Positions 7,673 through 25,752 of a stretch of 25,834 nucleotides of DNA are shown here, in pieces. The stretch comes from a virus. The notes beneath the pieces were generated by a model. That model saw only the letters and a list, made by a program, of their open reading frames with translations, ran no database searches and was not told the origin of the DNA. The position numbers and the translations under genes were made by a program. Positions within the stretch are counted from its first letter, which is position 1, and every line of letters starts with the position of its first letter. The DNA lies in the IMG/VR virus record IMGVR_UViG_3300032235_000379, positions 1 to 25,834 of that record; one strand, 5' to 3'.

Positions 7673-8098
7673 TCACAGGAATGCCTTGACATTCAACGGA
7701 TTACCAGTCACCTTGGCGATGACTTCGTGATCGTTAAATATCGAAAATAGCGCCGACTCATCATCACCCATCGGCACCTCCCAACGGTCGCCGCCCCATT
7801 TGGGCATGCGGACATAATCGCCCACATTGACCCAGTTGCCTTCCGGCCATGGTTCAAGCGTATCCCGTTTTTTGAACGCAAGCGGCCCAACCGCGATGAC
7901 CTTTGCCACCTGATTGTTCCACTTCTCGGTCTCTTTGGTCTCCTCGACTATCACAATTCCCGCCGAAGTGACCGTCTTGCGCGTCTGACGCCATTGCACA
8001 AGAATTCGACCACCAACAGGTACTGCTCCCGGATCAACCTGAGGAAATGCTTCCTCGAGCGTCGCTTCATGCGAAGACGCCGGTAAAAGGTCATTCAT
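7673..8098 (-). CDS. GroES-like (Cpn10) co-chaperonin
   Basis: 141 residues from ATG at 8098; a second ATG two codons upstream (8104) is possible but sits directly on the RBS AAAAGG. From about residue 25 the sequence follows the GroES fold: VPVGGRILVQWRQTRKTVTS, AGIVIVEETKET (the region of the mobile loop), QVAKVIAVGPLAF, then GNWVNVGDYVRMPKWGGDRW and a final DHEVIAKV strand. Phage GroES homologues such as T4 gp31 work with host GroEL to fold the capsid protein. The place two genes before the capsid module fits this. An N-terminal extension of about 25 residues precedes the domain. Whether it replaces host GroES cannot be told from the sequence. Confidence 0.75.
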   Translation of the reverse strand: MNDLLPASSHEATLEEAFPQVDPGAVPVGGRILVQWRQTRKTVTSAGIVIVEETKETEKWNNQVAKVIAVGPLAFKKRDTLEPWPEGNWVNVGDYVRMPKWGGDRWEVPMGDDESALFSIFNDHEVIAKVTGNPLNVKAFL

Positions 8099-8276
8099 CT
8101 TCATCCTTTTCTTCCAAAAGGTCGTTCAAAATATCCAAAGCCATCTGAAGGCCTTGGCGTTGACCTACAAGACCTCTGTAGGATTCCATGGACGAGGCGT
8201 GACCCTCGGCCAGTGAATTCGCAATATCTGACTTCCGCTTCTCTAACGAAGCGATCAGATCTTCAAGTAGGCGCAT
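8091..8276 (-). CDS. Small helical coiled-coil protein, unknown
   Basis: 61 residues, almost wholly helical (LLEDLIASLEKRKSDIANSL, then LQMALDILNDLLEEKDEDE), with an acidic C-terminus. No Shine-Dalgarno is visible; it starts three bases after the stop of the 47-residue gene and its end overlaps the GroES-like start by 8 bases, so it is probably translated by coupling. I recognise no family. Small acidic helical proteins near portal genes can be assembly factors, but that is only position. Confidence 0.65.
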   Translation of the reverse strand: MRLLEDLIASLEKRKSDIANSLAEGHASSMESYRGLVGQRQGLQMALDILNDLLEEKDEDE

Positions 8277-10929: not shown

Positions 10930-13050
10930 TTACTGAATCATTTCAATCGGCTGAAGCATCTCGAACTGCGTGGGCGAAAAATCAGCCAACGTGGGTCGCT
11001 CGTATGCGTCATTGACCGGTGGCAGCATTCCGGCCAGCAGTGAAGAAAAATCCGACGATGCCTGACCGATCATGTCGCGGTAAGCGTCCTCGCTCGAACG
11101 TTGGCGGGCCGGACCAAAATACCTCGTGCGAAGATCCACCGAACCGCCTTCTGCCATACCGGGAGGCTCGAAATTTCGGATTGCCTCCAGCATCTGCTGG
11201 TCTACTTCCATCAGAGTGTTCGGATCCATTCGACTAGCCCGTTTCATCCAATCCAGAGTGGTGGCGGGGTCACTACTCCGACCATACTGCTGTTCCTGCA
11301 TGATCTGCTCAAACTCTGGGCGACGAATCAGTTTATCACCGATGCGAACCATGTCGGTATAATTAAAATCGCCAATCTCCGGTGCATACTGGCCTGAACG
11401 TACAAAATCCGCGACATATGGCTGGTACTCCTCAACCGGCGCGACATTCTGCTTGCCCTTGATCTGCTCGATCTTGCCACCTGCAGTTTGTGCTTTTGCG
11501 ATTTCCTCGGCCCGTTGATAAATGTCTTCACTCGGAATTTCGGCATCGCCACGCTCCATACGCAGGGCAGTTTCGGCAGCATCATAATAATCATCAGCAG
11601 TACGATGTGCGACTTCGACGGTCACATGAGAGCGGCCTTTGGGATCGCGCAGCGAATAAATGTCGGTGACACCCGAGAGTACGTCCTCGCAATAACTACC
11701 GACGCAGTGACCCATGATTTCGCCCTCATTCTTGAGCGCCTTTTCAGTGAGTTCCTCAACATGATAATCGTTCGCACGCTCGAGTGCTACATCCTCACCG
11801 ACGTTCGCCTTCATGTACTGGTCGTACTTAGACCGGGCATTAGGCGTTAGCTCATCTGGGGTCGCGGCGGGCTTGGCCCGTAGGTTGACCCACCTGAACC
11901 CTGACTCGTACTCGCGATGCAGAGGGAAATTCTTACCTGTCTCTTCGACTGCCGCCTTTTCCATGGCGGCGGCTTTTTCGATGTTATATTCATGCGTGCG
12001 ACGAACTGCCTGTTCCATCGACACCTTGGATAATTGATCGGGACGGATCCGACCAGTCGCCAAATCCTCTTTCAGCACGTCGATAATGTGCTCAAAGCCC
12101 ATATTGCGGGTACGCGGCGCGAACACCTTGGTGCCTTCAGGTAGCTTCTTCATCCACTCCGGAACTTGCTGGCCACCCAAATTAAAAGCCTCCGCAGTCT
12201 CCGGGCGACCGACTACATAAGGCTCATCCAGTGCGAAATCCGCCATTGCTTCGTACCGCTGTGCCTCTGGGCGACCAGCTACGCCGTACTTGGGGTACCC
12301 CTCCATCTCGCGCAAGCGGCGCAAGTCGGCGGTCGGTTGAGCAAAATACGGAGCGAATTCGGTATGCGTGATGCCCTCTTCGGCCAGCAGACGCACCGGG
12401 TCCTCGGGCGTACCCATATCTCGCTTAATATACTTGGCAAGTGGGCCTTCGATCCATTTCTTTAGAGCGACTTCCTTCTTCATTTCGTCAATCGATCGCT
12501 CGAATATGCCACGAGATGCTTCGTCCGAAAACCCCCTCGATGCTGTTTGCTCAAGCTCAGCCAGCACAGCTTCGGGGTTCTGACGCCTCATCATCCCGGC
12601 CAGGTCACTCTTCAGACCGGTTTCGATCGTCTGAGATCCTTTGGGCCTGATAATCATTCCGATCGGCATGCCCTTGCTGGCGCGAACTAAAGGACCTGCA
12701 CCGGGCGCGAGATTAAGTAGGGCCTCAGCCGCCCCTTTAGTATCTTTCGTTAGCTGTCGGGCTTGGCCGGTGCCGCGAGTCAGGGGTGAACCGTAATTGA
12801 TGTTCTCGATGGTGCGGGTGAGCGCCGGGATCTGCATTAGATCCGAGATGATCTCTGCCGGTGGGTTGCTGTAGCCGAATGGCTTGCGGGCGAACTCGTC
12901 TACCGATTTGAGCGCCCGGCCAGTGGCACCGAGCAGCGGGAATTTTTCCTCGCGGGCGCGAAATTCGGGACCCGACGGCGCGGCCTTCTTGGACTTACCA
13001 CGCCCAAAATACTTGTCACGTAATCCAGACGCAATATCGTTATCAGCCAT
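10930..13050 (-). CDS. Large protein with PcfJ-like domain, possibly a virion or ejected protein
   Basis: 706 residues between large terminase and portal. The region about 440-540 has the signature I associate with the PcfJ-like family: EIMGHCVGSYCEDVLSG (His448, Cys449, Cys454), YSLRDPKGRSHVTVEV, and after a helical insert KIEQIKGKQN. PcfJ was named from a conjugative plasmid; its biochemical role is not established as far as I know. The rest is mostly helical and charged. A motif of the type LRxxYFG occurs near both ends (LRDKYFGRGK, residues about 10-19, and LRTRYFGPAR near 640). The gene begins two bases after the terminase stop. Size and position would fit an internal or ejected protein, but this is inference. 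Confidence 0.75.
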   Translation of the reverse strand: MADNDIASGLRDKYFGRGKSKKAAPSGPEFRAREEKFPLLGATGRALKSVDEFARKPFGYSNPPAEIISDLMQIPALTRTIENINYGSPLTRGTGQARQLTKDTKGAAEALLNLAPGAGPLVRASKGMPIGMIIRPKGSQTIETGLKSDLAGMMRRQNPEAVLAELEQTASRGFSDEASRGIFERSIDEMKKEVALKKWIEGPLAKYIKRDMGTPEDPVRLLAEEGITHTEFAPYFAQPTADLRRLREMEGYPKYGVAGRPEAQRYEAMADFALDEPYVVGRPETAEAFNLGGQQVPEWMKKLPEGTKVFAPRTRNMGFEHIIDVLKEDLATGRIRPDQLSKVSMEQAVRRTHEYNIEKAAAMEKAAVEETGKNFPLHREYESGFRWVNLRAKPAATPDELTPNARSKYDQYMKANVGEDVALERANDYHVEELTEKALKNEGEIMGHCVGSYCEDVLSGVTDIYSLRDPKGRSHVTVEVAHRTADDYYDAAETALRMERGDAEIPSEDIYQRAEEIAKAQTAGGKIEQIKGKQNVAPVEEYQPYVADFVRSGQYAPEIGDFNYTDMVRIGDKLIRRPEFEQIMQEQQYGRSSDPATTLDWMKRASRMDPNTLMEVDQQMLEAIRNFEPPGMAEGGSVDLRTRYFGPARQRSSEDAYRDMIGQASSDFSSLLAGMLPPVNDAYERPTLADFSPTQFEMLQPIEMIQ

Positions 13051-20706: not shown

Positions 20707-20990
20707 TATGCAAGCTCCATCGTCTTGATGTTCATCTGCTCCGAGGCCTTCATGAATTCGGGCAGCAGCTTCGGACCGATGTGTGCGCGGACCTTCTCGG
20801 TGTCCAAGATCGACTTCGTCGTGAATGTGATCTCGACCGCGCAGTTCTTCGATGAATAGGTCGCGGCACCACCATCGCGGAAGGCGTCCTTCAGCTCCTT
20901 CTCACGGGCAGCGAGTGCACGCAGCTTCTCGCGAATCGTGACCAGTTCATCGACCATGTCTTCAGTGATGACTACTTTCGACTTTGCCAT
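20706..20990 (-). CDS. Small helical protein, first gene after promoter P4
   Basis: 94 residues. A long charged N-terminal helix (DELVTIREKLRALAAREKEL) is followed by SKNCAVEITFTTKSILDTEK and a helical end KLLPEFMKASEQMNIKTMEL. This layout, coiled helix, beta hairpin and helix, is seen in many small phage proteins near replication genes. I cannot assign a function. The RBS AGAGGG is in the recurrent leader, and P4 is about 45 bp upstream. Confidence 0.7.
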   Translation of the reverse strand: MAKSKVVITEDMVDELVTIREKLRALAAREKELKDAFRDGGAATYSSKNCAVEITFTTKSILDTEKVRAHIGPKLLPEFMKASEQMNIKTMELA

Positions 20991-21033
20991 TTTACCCTCT
21001 ATTCTCTATATCCGGGAAGTCCCCGTAAGACCA

Positions 21034-21062
21034 ATTATATCACCGGTACGATAGTCTGTCAA
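21034..21062 (-). promoter_or_regulatory. Early promoter P4
   Basis: Minus strand TTGACA (21057-21062), 17 bp, TATAAT (21034-21039). The leader hairpin CGGGGACTTCCCG lies at 21013-21025. It starts four bases after the stop of the DUF6378-like gene. Confidence 0.9.
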
Positions 21063-21066
21063 GTAT

Positions 21067-21438
21067 TTACCACGAATCCCGGTCAGGTGTTGTCGAGCTG
21101 CTAACACTCGACCGTCCGAGATCCTCGACCGATATCTCCACCTCCTCGAACGCCGCCCGGATTTCGCGGGACACCTCGTCCTGCTTCAGGCGATCGACCA
21201 CCAACTGGGCGTACCCGATTATGTCTACCCACGAATCCATATATTTGGGGTCACCATTGAGAATCCGAGCGATTTTGTGCTGGATCATCTCGAGCGATTC
21301 TTGCATGTACGGATATAACTCGGGCCACGACCGGCCTTTGTGCATCACCTTCTTAAAATGCACCGATAATTCGGCGTGGTAGCGAAAATCGCCGTACTTT
21401 TCTGCACGGTCACTTAGCGTCTTTTTGATGTCCGTCAT
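21067..21438 (-). CDS. DUF6378-like phage protein
   Basis: 123 residues. The core TLSDRAEKYGDFRYHAELSV, then ESLEMIQHKIARILNGDPKY and DSWVDIIGYAQLVVDRL, is the pattern of a helical phage family I know as DUF6378 ('R...YG.f......m..K.aRi..G....D...DiagYa.L'). Its fold resembles small all-alpha nucleotide-related proteins, including MazG relatives, but no activity is established to my knowledge. The C-terminal 35 residues are variable and Ser rich. It lies right behind the Z-base genes and overlaps the zinc-ribbon gene by 29 bases, so it may belong to the same nucleotide-handling block. Confidence 0.78.
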   Translation of the reverse strand: MTDIKKTLSDRAEKYGDFRYHAELSVHFKKVMHKGRSWPELYPYMQESLEMIQHKIARILNGDPKYMDSWVDIIGYAQLVVDRLKQDEVSREIRAAFEEVEISVEDLGRSSVSSSTTPDRDSW

Positions 21439-21571
21439 GAGTCTTCTCTCTAGTAGTGAATCGGAATTGGCACTTCGGTGATTTGCACTCGCGCCGACGG
21501 CGTACGGTGTTATCGGCGTTGTTGTAAGTCATCAGTACATGAGTGGGCTTGCCGCATTTAATACATTTCAT
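21410..21571 (-). CDS. NrdR-like zinc-ribbon mini-protein
   Basis: 53 residues: MKCIKCGKPTHVLMTYNNAD, then NTVRRRRECKSPKCQFRFTT and a polar end. Cys3, Cys6, Cys29 and Cys34 form a zinc ribbon. The VRRRRxC...RFTT stretch is that of the N-terminal DNA-binding ribbon of NrdR, the repressor of ribonucleotide reductase genes. The second cysteine pair is CxxxxC instead of the usual CxxC, and the ATP-cone domain of NrdR is absent. The ATG at 21571 shares four bases with the datZ stop (ATGA). A role in reading NrdR boxes or in dNTP control is attractive but inferred; short ribbons of this kind also occur in other phages. Confidence 0.75.
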   Translation of the reverse strand: MKCIKCGKPTHVLMTYNNADNTVRRRRECKSPKCQFRFTTREKTHDGHQKDAK

Positions 21572-22104
21572 AGGCCCATCTCCTTTCGAACCTCGAACAT
21601 CCCTGACCGAATGTTCAGGTCGAGATGCTCCTTCTCGTATTTATCGATCATGTCGTACATGGTGTCGTACAGACCGGTGAGCACTTCCTTGGCATGGATG
21701 CCCACACCGTGATCTTTTAAGAACCAGATCGCTTCCAGGATATCCGCGAATTTCACGATTACGCCGTATACGGTGCCTTCCGCACGACGACACATTCCAC
21801 CATACTCCTTCAGGAACTGCTCTTCAGCGGCAAGCATCTTCGCACCATTCGCCTCGAGTGCACGCTTGAATGGGGTCGGGATGTCGCCGGTATAGATCTC
21901 GACAATGTCGTGCATCAAAGCCCAAGACATCAGATCCAGTTGATCCGAGTGATGAAACCGCCCGTTCCATCCGATCGCCGCCGCGATGCGAACTGCAATG
22001 CCCGCGACGTTGAACGAGTGTTCAGCGATCGTCTGGGTGCGCGACGTATTCACTATCGTCCACCGCTTGGTGTACGACGCACGCAGCCATTCACTCGCTT
22101 TCAT
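21568..22104 (-). CDS. datZ: DatZ, HD-domain dATP triphosphohydrolase
   Basis: 178 residues from ATG at 22104, which overlaps the mazZ stop (ATGA) and has GAGG at good distance; an in-frame start at 22143 is less likely. The HD fold residues are His29 (TIAEHSFNVAG), His65-Asp66 with Glu69 (ALMHDIVEIYTGDIPTP) and Asp121 (VIVKFADILEA). This is the YfbR-type HD family, and the start region SYTKRWTIVNTSRTQTIAEH matches phage DatZ proteins. DatZ of Z-genome phages strips the triphosphate from dATP so that no adenine reaches the polymerase. Position next to mazZ and purZ makes this reading much more likely than a general 5'-nucleotidase. Confidence 0.87.
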   Translation of the reverse strand: MKASEWLRASYTKRWTIVNTSRTQTIAEHSFNVAGIAVRIAAAIGWNGRFHHSDQLDLMSWALMHDIVEIYTGDIPTPFKRALEANGAKMLAAEEQFLKEYGGMCRRAEGTVYGVIVKFADILEAIWFLKDHGVGIHAKEVLTGLYDTMYDMIDKYEKEHLDLNIRSGMFEVRKEMGL

Positions 22105-22595
22105 ACATGCCTCATGATTCGCGTGTTCGGATCCACTCGCCATGTTCGCTGCTCGTTGATGTCCATCTTGTCATTCACCGCTTTCTGTATGTCGATGTCA
22201 TTCATGCGTGCGACATCCAGCAGCAGGATCATAATGTCCCCGAATTCAGGAGCACTCTTAGGGTCGCGTGCGTACTCTCCAAGCTCCTCATATAATTTAA
22301 GCAGGATATCGGCAGTAGTCCGATTGGGAAAGTTCTGATCAGCCCAATCGACGATACGATCCTGCAATTGCTTGATGTCGGCACCAACTCTTTTATGATA
22401 GGCCGAAACGGCACGTAGTACAAAATCGGCATTGATATCACACGATCCGGTGACACCCTTATAGAGGTCACGCGTCTCGAAATCTGCAACCGGTAGCCCG
22501 TTGGCGTCCAAGAGTAGCGCGGGATTGCCTTCACTCTTCCTCCACGGTAGTGGGTTCATCTCGTCGGTATAACCGAGCGCTTCAAAAATCGGCAT
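22101..22595 (-). CDS. mazZ: MazZ-like MazG-fold dGTP pyrophosphohydrolase with N-terminal extra domain
   Basis: 164 residues from ATG at 22595, chosen because AGGGAGA lies just upstream; the open frame goes on to 22652 without RBS. The C-terminal half is a MazG-type helical domain: LYEELGEYAR (Glu103, Glu104, Glu107), EFGDIMILL (Glu117, Asp120), and KMDINEQRTW with Lys143, Asn147 and Arg150, the usual metal and substrate sites. The N-terminal 75 residues (NPLPWRKSEGNPALLLDANG, NADFVLRAVSAYHK) match a separate phage domain of unknown role. In Z phages MazZ converts dGTP to dGMP, the PurZ substrate. It overlaps purZ by 14 bases. Confidence 0.83.
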   Translation of the reverse strand: MPIFEALGYTDEMNPLPWRKSEGNPALLLDANGLPVADFETRDLYKGVTGSCDINADFVLRAVSAYHKRVGADIKQLQDRIVDWADQNFPNRTTADILLKLYEELGEYARDPKSAPEFGDIMILLLDVARMNDIDIQKAVNDKMDINEQRTWRVDPNTRIMRHV

Positions 22596-23604
22596 ATTCA
22601 ATCTCCCTAATGTCTGCATCATCCGGCCCGAAGCACAGGTAATCTGGTCCAAAGTTCGATAAATTCATCTGACGGATGATGTTGGTCAGCGTATCCTCGC
22701 CACAGTAATCCGCGAATGTGAGTACGACTTTCGTCGAGAGTCCCGCACAGTGTAGCATCGCGTGCTTGTACTGCGCGTCCGAGAATTCGAAGATGCGACG
22801 CGGCAGCTTGGTCACTGTAGTCAGTTCAGGCTCTAGTCCCAGATCGCCCCAAGATATCTCTTTCTGCCCGGGGTATGCAGGTCCAGACGTACCATCACGA
22901 TTATTCACTCGGATCGGGAACGTGCGTACGACCATCCACACCGTGATCGCTGCCGCCCATGTGAACGGTAATCCGCAATCCGCCGCGATCTGCCACGGTG
23001 TTACGTCACGCGATGTACAATATGGCCAATCACCATGGTACATTGACAGGCCGAACCCCTGTGCACCTTCGACCAGCAGATGGCGCGACTCGTTCAGGAT
23101 GCGGTCGTATTCGAACCGATCGACCACGAACTGCTCGAGCGGATGACCCTTGAAACCCAACCGGGCGACGGCTTTCGAATCCGGGTCACGCATGATGCGA
23201 TCCACCATCGCAGCCCCCACGCCTTTGGTGGTCGAGCCGATTTTGGTCATGCCGAGTGATTTCTCACGCTCAGAATGCTCATCCGTCACCACCGCTGCGT
23301 GTTCGTGGATCACCAACCGCTGGCCCTCGACCATGTATTTGTCGATCTCTCGTTGCAGGGTACCCGCGTGAATGAGCGATCCCGGGCCGAGCATGACCGT
23401 GTTCACCGACGGGCCAGACACTCCGACCGGCAGCTGCTGCACCATCATCTTCAGACCCCGGGCGCGGTCATTATACGTGTGACCCGCTTGCGTGCCATAT
23501 GAACACACCACGGTGTCGTATGCATACCGTTTCGCGAGCCAGCCGGACACGCCGCCTTTGCCACACGATCCCCACATGCCATCCATAGTCATATCGATTC
23601 TCAT
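22582..23604 (-). CDS. purZ: PurZ, phage adenylosuccinate synthetase-like enzyme for 2-aminoadenine
   Basis: 340 residues, about 90 shorter than bacterial PurA. The first loop is WGSCGKGG: Ser13 stands where PurA has catalytic Asp13. The catalytic His is kept (His42 in QAGHT), and GSTTKGVGAAMVDR (123-136), VEGAQGF (178-184) and YCTSRDVTPWQIAADCG (195-211) follow PurA regions. The guanine-binding TKLD motif reads TKLP (265-268), so GTP specificity is probably lost. PurZ joins aspartate to dGMP; host PurB then gives dZMP, which host kinases turn into dZTP. The RBS GAGGAG fits ATG at 23604. The gene has its own possible promoter. Confidence 0.94.
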   Translation of the reverse strand: MRIDMTMDGMWGSCGKGGVSGWLAKRYAYDTVVCSYGTQAGHTYNDRARGLKMMVQQLPVGVSGPSVNTVMLGPGSLIHAGTLQREIDKYMVEGQRLVIHEHAAVVTDEHSEREKSLGMTKIGSTTKGVGAAMVDRIMRDPDSKAVARLGFKGHPLEQFVVDRFEYDRILNESRHLLVEGAQGFGLSMYHGDWPYCTSRDVTPWQIAADCGLPFTWAAAITVWMVVRTFPIRVNNRDGTSGPAYPGQKEISWGDLGLEPELTTVTKLPRRIFEFSDAQYKHAMLHCAGLSTKVVLTFADYCGEDTLTNIIRQMNLSNFGPDYLCFGPDDADIREIEYADF

Positions 23605-23631
23605 ACTACTCCTCTATACGTTAGAACATAC

Positions 23632-23660
23632 ATTATAACATAGTGCTACCGGTAACGTAG
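23632..23660 (-). promoter_or_regulatory. Possible extended -10 promoter of purZ
   Basis: Minus strand TGTTATAAT (-10 box 23632-23637 with upstream TG). The -35 region (23655-23660, CTACGT) is poor. The spacer contains TACCGGTA, similar to the spacer of P4, and the RBS leader TATAGAGGAG resembles those of P1 to P4. The 58-bp gap between polymerase and purZ holds nothing else. Confidence 0.5.
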
Positions 23661-23662
23661 TG

Positions 23663-25483
23663 TCACCCTTTCGCCTCGTACCAGTTACCGCCGATACCCC
23701 AGTCGCAGGTGATCGGCACCCTGAACTTCATCTCGCAATCGACGCCATCGAACGTGGTGTAGATCTTGGCGATCGCGTCGGGATTCGCGTCCTTCTCGAG
23801 CGATATACCGACTTCGTCGTGCACGGTCAGCAGCAATCGTCCCGCATCACGCTCGGTCAGATATCGGTCGATCTCAATGAGCTTCACCTTCATCGCGTCA
23901 GCGCTGGTGCCTTGGTAAATCAGACCCGACGCCTTGTGCGTGAACTGCCCGCCCGGGAACCGGATGTGACGGCCCATCATGGTCATCACGTGACCCCGCT
24001 GCCGAGCGATCGCCGACGCCTTTTGCTGCATATTGCGCATTCCAGGATTCGCCGCGTGGTACTTCTCGAAGATCGCAAGCGCCTCGGGGCCGGGTTTGAC
24101 AAACACTCGCCCATCGTCCATCGTCTCCTCGGCACAAGGTAGCCCGATCTCTTGCGCGAGACGCCCGGCACCCATGTTGAATGCAAGACCCAGATTGATC
24201 GCTTTCGATGACGGCCCACCCGCATACTGCGCGTTCCGGGGAATGCCGGTCATATCGGATACTAGCTGGTGGAAGTCGAGGTTCGGGTTGTCGTGGTACG
24301 CCTTGATGATGGCCGGTACTTGGCCGTAATGGTTAGCCACGCGAAACTCGAACTGCGACCAATCCATTCCAAGCCATCTTGCGCCCTCATCTGGAAGGAA
24401 AATAGGACGTACCAAGGACTTGATCTCTTGGTCACGACTAGGGATCTGCTGGAGCGCTGGATTGGTAACTGAGAGTCTGCCGGTACCAGTTCCGGCCTCC
24501 GCATCATTTTTCGTCTGGTTATAGTTACAGTGAATGACGCCTTCATTGTGATGTCCTAAGATGTGGCCGGATAAGAATGTATCGCGGGTTTTCAGCATTT
24601 TGCGCAGGTCGAGTATCATCTTCGCCGCCGGGTGCTTCATGCGGCGCAGACAGTCTGCGTTTATCGATGCCTTACCCCCATCAGTCTTATCCGCCTTCGT
24701 GCCGTCATTCAAATACCATTCACCATCCGATCCTAACTTCGGCTCGAATAGCTTCGTGATCGATCCGGAAGGGTTCGGGTTGACCTCGAATCCCGCGAGG
24801 GTATTCAAGGCCCGGTGGTCCTGCTCGATGCGAACGGAGAGCCTCTCGACCGCCTCCTCGGCCCGATCGACGTCCACCCGCACGCCGCCCTCTTCCATCC
24901 GAATTATAACAGGCATGAGCCTCCGCTCCAGATCGTGCACCTTGGCGATCTCGGTCATGCGGGGTTCCTGCCACTGGAACAGCTTCATCGTCGCCAGTGC
25001 ATCCTGCTTCGCATATTTTGCCACCATTTCTGCCGGTGCGCGGTGGATATTGGGCATTTGGGCGTTCCGAGTGGCCCTACCACCGAACAACCCGGCCATC
25101 TCCTCGTATATCTCGGTCTCCTTGCGGGTGTTGGCGTACTTGCGAGCCAAGAAGTCGAGTTCATAGGTGGGTTCATGCTCGTTGATCAGCGCCGCCCGGA
25201 TCATGGTGCAGTCGATTCGATCCTCAGGCAGGATGACCCCCGCCTCGCGCAGAAAATGGTAATCGAACTTCAGATTATGTCCGACCCACTTCGTGCGCGG
25301 ATTCGCATCGATCAGGTCATTTAACCAGTCGATAAATCGAGGATCCGTTCGAACATCGAAATACCATGTATCTTCGGTCTCCGTACACAGCGAGACCCCG
25401 AAAATGCGGTCTTTCCACCACTTTAAACCAGTGGTCTCCGTATCGATCACCAACACCTTCGGATTCTCTATGCGCGGATACAT
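23663..25483 (-). CDS. dpoZ: Family A DNA polymerase with 3'-5' exonuclease, DpoZ type
   Basis: 606 residues. The proofreading domain has Exo I VIDTETTG (Asp14, Glu16), Exo II HNLKFDYHF (Asp73) and Exo III YAKQD (Tyr156, Asp160). The polymerase domain has TGTGRLS (330-337), motif A MDWSQFEFR (Asp373, Glu378), motif B SSKAINLGLAFNMG (Lys426), QGTSADAMK (523-531) and motif C VHDE (His554-Glu556). There is no 5'-3' exonuclease domain. In the O helix of motif B, positions matching E. coli Pol I Arg754 and Phe762 appear as Gly422 and Leu430. In phages with PurZ, a polymerase of this kind (DpoZ) prefers dZTP over dATP; the location next to purZ supports that. No RBS is visible; it starts five bases after the upstream stop. 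Confidence 0.9.
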   Translation of the reverse strand: MYPRIENPKVLVIDTETTGLKWWKDRIFGVSLCTETEDTWYFDVRTDPRFIDWLNDLIDANPRTKWVGHNLKFDYHFLREAGVILPEDRIDCTMIRAALINEHEPTYELDFLARKYANTRKETEIYEEMAGLFGGRATRNAQMPNIHRAPAEMVAKYAKQDALATMKLFQWQEPRMTEIAKVHDLERRLMPVIIRMEEGGVRVDVDRAEEAVERLSVRIEQDHRALNTLAGFEVNPNPSGSITKLFEPKLGSDGEWYLNDGTKADKTDGGKASINADCLRRMKHPAAKMILDLRKMLKTRDTFLSGHILGHHNEGVIHCNYNQTKNDAEAGTGTGRLSVTNPALQQIPSRDQEIKSLVRPIFLPDEGARWLGMDWSQFEFRVANHYGQVPAIIKAYHDNPNLDFHQLVSDMTGIPRNAQYAGGPSSKAINLGLAFNMGAGRLAQEIGLPCAEETMDDGRVFVKPGPEALAIFEKYHAANPGMRNMQQKASAIARQRGHVMTMMGRHIRFPGGQFTHKASGLIYQGTSADAMKVKLIEIDRYLTERDAGRLLLTVHDEVGISLEKDANPDAIAKIYTTFDGVDCEMKFRVPITCDWGIGGNWYEAKG

Positions 25484-25488
25484 GGCGG

Positions 25489-25752
25489 TCAGAATGGTAG
25501 GTCATCGATGAATTCCTTCGGCGATCCGGGCGACGGAGCCTTAGGCGGCTCGTCCTTGCGGTTGATCGCGATCGAGAAGTATTTCTGGCCTTCGAGTTTT
25601 GATCCTGGACCTCCCTCCTTCACCCATGCGGACATCCAGAACTCGACGCCTTCGACGTTGATGGTGCCGGTGTACTCGGGATGGGTGGGCTTCTCCTTGC
25701 GCTTGTTACGAGCGAGCATCCCGGAGTTGGTGTTGTCGTATTCCTTTTTCAT
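25489..25752 (-). CDS. Small protein with SSB-like acidic C-terminus
   Basis: 87 residues. DNTNSGMLARNKRKEKPTHP followed by YTGTINVEGVEFWMSAWVK and KYFSIAINRKD is a recurrent phage and plasmid type (similar to DUF736-like proteins) with a small beta barrel. The C-terminus EFIDDLPF resembles the acidic tail with final Phe by which SSB binds replication partners. It is likely a single-strand binding or polymerase accessory protein, since the DNA polymerase gene follows after five bases. The RBS AGAGGA precedes ATG at 25752. The barrel identity is inferred. Confidence 0.72.
   Translation of the reverse strand: MKKEYDNTNSGMLARNKRKEKPTHPEYTGTINVEGVEFWMSAWVKEGGPGSKLEGQKYFSIAINRKDEPPKAPSPGSPKEFIDDLPF

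Follow-up and report, generated by a model that had tools for sequence, protein, structure and literature searches.

Does the DNA of an uncultivated virus that encodes a complete gene set for 2-aminoadenine (Z) carry Z in place of adenine, and does its PurZ draw on the phosphate donor used by the PurZ enzymes characterised so far? Both questions are raised by the linear 25,834-bp IMG/VR virus record IMGVR_UViG_3300032235_000379 (the window), in which nearly all genes lie on the minus strand and the high-coordinate end holds the adjacent genes dpoZ, purZ, mazZ and datZ. A first-pass annotation had matched these genes to the known phage pathway for 2-aminoadenine; gene content, order, families, catalytic residues and phylogeny all agree with that match. 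It had overlooked that the donor pocket of PurZ is atypical and that purZ was exchanged between phages.

The Z gene block and its proposed pathway

The four Z genes are intact open reading frames (ORFs):

23663..25483, minus strand: DpoZ (606 amino acids), family A DNA polymerase with 3'-5' exonuclease, phiVC8-like (NF038380, 7pbk)
22582..23604, minus strand: PurZ (340 amino acids), succino-2-amino-deoxyadenylate synthase (6fm1, residues, tree, model)
22101..22595, minus strand: MazZ (164 amino acids; ATG at 22595), MazZ-1/DUF550 type, predicted (d)GTP diphosphohydrolase (7ody, PF04447)
21568..22104, minus strand: DatZ (178 amino acids), predicted HD-domain dATP triphosphohydrolase (6zpa, PHROG 7076, residues)

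The purZ, mazZ and datZ genes are adjacent and co-oriented (23604-21568), and related loci keep this order. The 14-bp overlap of purZ and mazZ reported in the first-pass annotation is present; the reported 4-bp overlap of mazZ and datZ (ATGA) is found only with the datZ start at 22104, and becomes 43 bp with the alternative in-frame ATG at 22143, which gives a protein of 191 amino acids. A scan with DpoZ identified 46 related viral IMG/VR loci (compared loci are given as L or G numbers). DpoZ and PurZ were found in 46/46 of these loci, with MazZ, DatZ and a DUF6378 protein encoded downstream wherever the contig was long enough. Moreover, the ratio of nonsynonymous to synonymous substitution rates (dN/dS) was 0.02-0.13 for five block genes in the comparison of the window with locus L008, i.e. 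these genes are under purifying selection. Together with the family models and the matches in the PDB described below, these observations confirm that the four-gene set is complete. In several relatives there is a gap between mazZ and datZ, e.g. L012:9502-9725. In the contig of G001, which at 56.5 kb is the longest close relative, this gap holds an 81-amino-acid ORF (L240:348-590) that is not present in the window. Upstream of the block, G001 encodes a UvrD helicase, an SNF2 helicase and an archaeo-eukaryotic-type primase.

DpoZ scored 800.3 bits against the NCBIfam DpoZ_1 model NF038380 (cut-off 500), and its closest solved structure is DpoZ of phiVC8 (7pbk; E 3.7e-139). The exonuclease residues D26, E28 and D85, as well as R358, R440 and the polymerase HD dyad, are present, as are L455, F459, G548 and the insertions described for the phiVC8 clade of DpoZ (PMC8599892). 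The best PDB match of MazZ is S-2L MazZ (7ody; E 2e-10), and the protein matches Pfam PF04447 (E 9.2e-9). All metal ligands (E35/E38/E50/D53) and guanine contacts (I56/D60) of MazZ-1 are kept, and the S-2L residues K76, N80, R83, W85, M93, R94 and H95 are also retained. MazZ has an N-terminal extension of ~70 amino acids, as is frequent among MazZ-1 proteins (PMC8342488). DatZ is most similar to S-2L DatZ (6zpa; E 4e-15) in the PDB and to the dATP triphosphohydrolases of PHROG 7076 (E 4.7e-29). It is identical to S-2L DatZ at 14/14 of the catalytic and specificity sites tested, i.e. the HD metal ligands, R19/W20/I22, P79, K81 and K116, including I22, which in S-2L DatZ shuts out the 2-amino group (PMC8065100).

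The best PDB match of PurZ is phiVC8 PurZ (6fm1; E 1.5e-59), with S-2L PurZ also among the closest. S13, in the motif MWGSCGKG, replaces the catalytic Asp13 of PurA; Ser occupies this site in all phage PurZ compared, and E. coli PurA has Asp there. Also present are the T273/T276 aspartate loop, which is conserved, and V241, a residue that hinders ribose (residue roles in PurZ, DatZ and MazZ are from PMC8342488 and PMC8065100). The AlphaFold model of PurZ (predicted local distance difference test score, pLDDT, 91) superimposes on phiVC8 PurZ with Z 45.9 and 1.7 A over 329 residues, and matches P. horikoshii PurA (Z 38.4) and PurZ0 (Z 37.8) less well. A PADLOC search with PurZ gave no match.

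Gene content, order, overlaps, catalytic residues, family placement and selection make it very likely that the block is a Z-genome biosynthesis operon of the S-2L/phiVC8/SH-Ab 15497 kind. The enzyme activities and the Z content of virion DNA would then follow those of characterised homologues (PMC8342488, PMC8065100, PMC8599892, PMC12884076). MazZ would convert dGTP to dGMP, which PurZ would join with aspartate, using a nucleoside triphosphate, to form N6-succino-2-amino-dAMP (dSMP); host adenylosuccinate lyase and nucleotide kinases would complete dZTP. DatZ would destroy dATP, and DpoZ, which has a proofreading domain, would favour dZTP over dATP. Because dATP would be removed by one enzyme and dZTP preferred by the other, the genome is proposed to be built with Z replacing A.

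The donor pocket and history of PurZ

The donor pocket of the window's PurZ reads T296-F-A-D299, and relatives that are at least 72% identical all share this T-F-A-D; in the L085-L087 group the pocket is S/T-F-C-D. By contrast, the ATP-type PurZ compared have N-F-x-N or N-F-x-Q, with T-F-x-N in two exceptions (L101, L154). In S-2L PurZ, the donor ATP/dATP is read at its adenine through hydrogen bonds from N305 and Q308, with F306 stacked on the base (PMC8342488). Because T296 and D299 stand in place of this Asn/Gln pair in the window and its clade, we did not file the protein as ATP-type. The pair that it carries, Thr/Ser plus Asp, is that of PurZ0, in which the pocket is T-M-L-D (Goodman) or S-F-A-D (Ghobes); the pocket of E. 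coli PurA is T-K-L-D, and that of P. horikoshii PurA, which was crystallised with GTP, is T-M-L-D. PurZ0 is reported to use GTP, a result ascribed to Tong et al. in 2023. One sentence in PMC12884076 reverses the donor preferences of PurZ0 and PurZ relative to that paper's own introduction, which is probably a slip. For E. coli PurA, the title of Kang 1994, as listed in PMC7952092, states that Asp333->Asn shifts specificity from GTP to XTP. The pocket change is accompanied by the substitutions N49 to Q and Y/F21 to W.

We placed PurZ in a tree of 83 proteins from which seven trait columns had been removed and in which E. coli PurA was the outgroup. The window's PurZ clade and L085/L087 group together (support 99/94) inside a 20-row clade (100/100), which is nested in a 57-row clade of phage PurZ (100/98). 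PurZ0 forms a clade of its own (100/99) apart from the window's protein, which is therefore filed as PurZ and not PurZ0. An ordinary PurA or a PurZ0 was ruled out by the tree together with the residues; thus, grouping with PurA, which the first-pass annotation had named as grounds for abandoning its reading, is not what the tree and the Ser at the Asp13 site show. A position as sister to all ATP-type PurZ, obtained in an early small tree, was dropped because wider sampling nests the window's PurZ inside them.

The distribution of Asp at the donor site requires two changes, i.e. a basal loss in ATP-type PurZ and a regain in the window clade, versus 10 losses if the ancestral Asp had been retained. 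A two-state model assigns Asp a probability of 0.001 in the common ancestor of the 20-row clade and of 0.98 in that of the seven carriers, and the irreversible model has a log likelihood of -28.8 versus -12.4, a difference of 16 log units. These reconstructions indicate that Asp was regained, not retained, in the window's PurZ clade. The neighbouring L101, with T-F-C-N, has an intermediate pocket. W and Q49, the accompanying residues, are also found in an archaeal PurZ-like group; a single origin of the W-Q-D signature with the archaeal L168, L171 and L173 was rejected in an approximately unbiased (AU) test (p 3.7e-6), and thus the signature is independent in the two groups. The proposed direction of enzyme history runs from PurA through PurZ0 (GTP) to PurZ (ATP); against this direction, the window's PurZ clade appears to have reverted from ATP to GTP as donor.

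The window's PurZ also differs in history from its neighbours. Compared with L025 and its relatives, the window has ~73% identity in DpoZ, ~57-67% in MazZ, 74% in TerL and 65% in the portal protein, and only 41-46% in PurZ. The DpoZ tree joins the window to the L025 group (Shimodaira-Hasegawa-like approximate likelihood ratio test, SH-aLRT, 100), and a topology that unites its DpoZ with the L083 set is rejected (p 1e-5). In the tree of PurZ the window instead falls with L085/L101/L083, and a topology that unites its PurZ with the L025 set is rejected (p 9e-13). Both p values are from AU tests and, because the groups were named after the identities had been seen, are not fully independent tests. 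The tree conflict indicates that purZ does not share the history of the remaining genome and that it was swapped in from another Z phage, apparently as a single gene within a tightly overlapping operon. Since the PurZ and DpoZ of the L025 set have similar neighbours in both trees, it is the window's lineage that more likely holds the foreign purZ. In L019 and L020, PurZ (72-73%) and DpoZ (71%) are near those of the window, with MazZ at 44-45% and TerL in the L019 contig at 46%; these low values indicate that mazZ and the structural genes were reassorted too.

We give a slight preference to GTP, rather than (d)ATP, as the phosphate donor in the window's PurZ lineage; the preference is based on the residue pair T296/D299 and its phylogeny, while the Phe that stacks on adenine is kept. 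In the same way, the odds lean a little towards a third functional kind of PurZ, in which a GTP-type pocket was regained, purZ was transferred alone and Z synthesis would run on GTP. Several observations count against the readings proposed here. The virus is uncultivated and known here from the sequence of a 25.8-kb fragment, and sequencing reads do not distinguish Z from A. Its PurZ scored 284.7 bits against NCBIfam NF038379, slightly below the cut-off of 300, as did other members of its clade (277-291 bits); this cut-off is a threshold for annotation rather than a feature of the enzyme itself, and the residues and tree place the protein in PurZ. Asn49 of the dGMP pocket is Gln, which elsewhere is seen only in one archaeal group. 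Finally, the window's PurZ keeps Phe297, which stacks on adenine in ATP-type PurZ, and this speaks against GTP. As NF038379 misses the window's PurZ clade, the clade may be overlooked by automatic annotation.

The retained Phe297, which corresponds to the residue that stacks on adenine in S-2L PurZ, also enters into the alternative that the enzyme is a standard ATP-using PurZ, in which the Thr/Asp change would be neutral, the donor would still be ATP/dATP and the operon would be an ordinary copy of the S-2L/phiVC8 pathway. Pro327 is likewise kept, Asp could in principle accept a hydrogen bond from the 6-amino group of adenine, and the window clade nests among ATP-type PurZ. However, both adenine-reading polar residues have changed together to those of PurA/PurZ0 and are fixed in the sampled clade, N/Q is retained in the other sampled members of the ATP-type clade, and Asp was regained despite a strong ancestral N/Q state; we therefore regard this alternative as a serious one with somewhat less than an even chance. 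A different possibility is that the genes are active and virion DNA mixes A and Z, given that phiVC8 DpoZ prefers dZTP, not exclusively (PMC8599892), and that the host may go on supplying dATP. Partial substitution is unlikely in view of the dATP-removing and Z-selecting components, all of which are intact and under purifying selection, and of the characterised phages with this gene set, which are fully Z (PMC12884076).

DpoZ-like polymerases exist in phages without purZ (PMC8599892), and the genes could be relics or otherwise employed in a genome with ordinary A, as suggested for phiJL001; with four intact genes that keep their catalytic residues, overlapping frames and low dN/dS, this is highly improbable. 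An assembly chimera could likewise produce conflicting PurZ and DpoZ trees in a metagenomic contig, so that the mismatch of purZ would reflect misassembly rather than gene exchange. In contigs from many samples, assembled independently of one another, this PurZ is again flanked by the same dpoZ and mazZ, and it overlaps mazZ in the same way where checked; because these junctions recur, an artefact is scarcely credible. If a third kind of PurZ does exist, the transition from PurZ0 (GTP) to PurZ (ATP) would be reversible and the enzymes of Z operons would be exchangeable singly.

Flanking genes and chromosomal PurZ-like units

Besides the four Z genes, the interval given in the first-pass annotation takes in two co-conserved genes that it left unnamed, the SSB-like gene upstream and the DUF6378 gene downstream; these and a promoter flank the set:

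25489..25752, minus strand: SSB-like (single strand DNA binding) protein (87 amino acids), opens the conserved block (PHROG 18154 and 7364)
21067..21438, minus strand: DUF6378 all-helical protein (123 amino acids), 3' of datZ (PF19905)
21034..21062, minus strand: consensus sigma-70 promoter, directly after the block (12/12 match)

The SSB-like protein matches PHROG 18154 and 7364 (E 1.7e-15 and 4e-14), and its gene adjoins that for DpoZ in related loci too. The DUF6378 protein matches PF19905 (E 3.7e-7), its helical model has pLDDT 83, and the motif E..DMI..K..RI..G.P...DSW.DI.GYA is strongly conserved. The model gave no convincing PDB match (Foldseek E >1; VIA Z <=6.2, helical bundle), and identification as a MazG-fold pyrophosphohydrolase was set aside, although the protein may have that fold; its function is possibly nucleotide-related. 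Such a gene lies near datZ in phiVC8; because the family is also widespread among phages that have no known connection to Z, we did not count it as a Z enzyme. The promoter (21062-21034) has TTGACA and TATAAT with a 17-bp spacer and a TG extension, and both hexamers with this spacer are kept at the equivalent spot in 8 related loci. This sigma-70 promoter probably drives the next transcription unit, of small genes. The leader that follows it (20990-21062) contains a short palindrome, CGGGGACTTCCCG, which is kept in several related contigs and is a possible operator or mRNA hairpin.

In the structural half of the window, TerL, the portal, a GroES-like protein and the capsid are akin to those of Caulobacter phage RW and the 57,457-bp MW202545; the capsid module is one that the first-pass annotation had called less familiar. 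No Z genes were found in MW202545 by tblastn. These comparisons place the window in a phage lineage of ~57 kb whose structural genes have relatives in a phage that lacks Z genes. Structural relatives infect Caulobacter, Roseobacter and Pelagibacter, which makes an alphaproteobacterium a first guess for the host. A 706-amino-acid protein with a PcfJ-like domain is encoded between the terminase and portal genes (10930-13050), and the GroES-like co-chaperonin lies within the head module (7673-8104); a chaperonin-10 gene is annotated in MW202545 too.

Ser-type PurZ-like genes were also observed on bacterial chromosomes, in a conserved neighbourhood at L176:5001-7072, L215:2897-7155 and ~15 more loci (L183, L187, L190, L195, L197, L200, L203, L208, L209, L212, L213, L216, L217 and L225-L227). 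In many of these loci the PurZ-like gene is preceded by one for a fusion of an RNase H-like nuclease with a P-loop kinase and followed by one for a dCTP-deaminase-like protein, and two loci adjoin restriction genes (MmeI; a type I-like methylase, identified by eye). PADLOC models gave no match to the PurZ part of the chromosomal loci. The neighbourhood is perhaps an undescribed nucleotide-modifying or defence module. In a second chromosomal unit, found in many phyla, a kinase domain is fused to a Ser-type PurZ-like domain, mostly with a DUF7002 gene after it:

L177:4431-6116, L222:4419-6652, L193:4440-6778 and others: kinase-PurZ-like fusion loci

DUF7002 was present in 19/80 loci.

Comparison with known Z systems

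The Z cluster itself is of a known kind and expected here; it adds a ~57-kb lineage to the Z-genome phages. In the accessible literature we found no description of a donor-pocket regain or a single-gene swap of purZ, and a 2026 survey, with a tree from NCBI viruses, recognises PurZ0 and PurZ only (PMC12884076). If both hold, donor choice would not be limiting for a Z genome and Z-pathway enzymes would be freely combinable, which bears on the origin of base-replaced genomes and on Z-DNA engineering.

Acinetobacter phage SH-Ab 15497, Klebsiella phage K21lambda1 and Pseudomonas phage PSA28 share with the window the order DpoZ-PurZ-MazZ-DatZ, a UvrD-like helicase (on the window's side seen in G001), a DUF550 MazZ with an N-terminal fusion and a DpoZ that is 48-49% identical. 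However, their SSB gene follows that for DpoZ, whereas that of the window precedes it; their PurZ is 38-40% identical and has N-F-C/A-N in place of T-F-A-D; and the window has a DUF6378 gene 3' of datZ. Cyanophage S-2L (7ODX, 7ODY, 6ZPA) has the same adjacency of purZ, mazZ and datZ, and its DatZ (14/14 sites) and most active-site residues of its MazZ are identical to those of the window; by contrast, it has a PrimPol and no DpoZ, and its PurZ, with N305/Q308, uses ATP or dATP (PMC8342488, PMC8065100). Vibrio phage phiVC8 (6FM1, 7PBK) resembles the window in PurZ fold (Z 45.9), DpoZ family and a DUF6378-like gene downstream, but has a MazZ-2 where the window has a MazZ-1 (PMC8342488), and its PurZ pocket is N-F-C-N. 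Finally, the PurZ0 of Gordonia phage Archimedes (7VF6), Ghobes and Arthrobacter phages shares Ser13 and the Thr/Ser-Asp donor pair with the window's PurZ; these phages differ in having DutZ/DmtZ/DUF5664 and another type of DpoZ (PMC12884076), their PurZ0 forms a separate clade, and the Asp of the window's protein is a later regain within PurZ.

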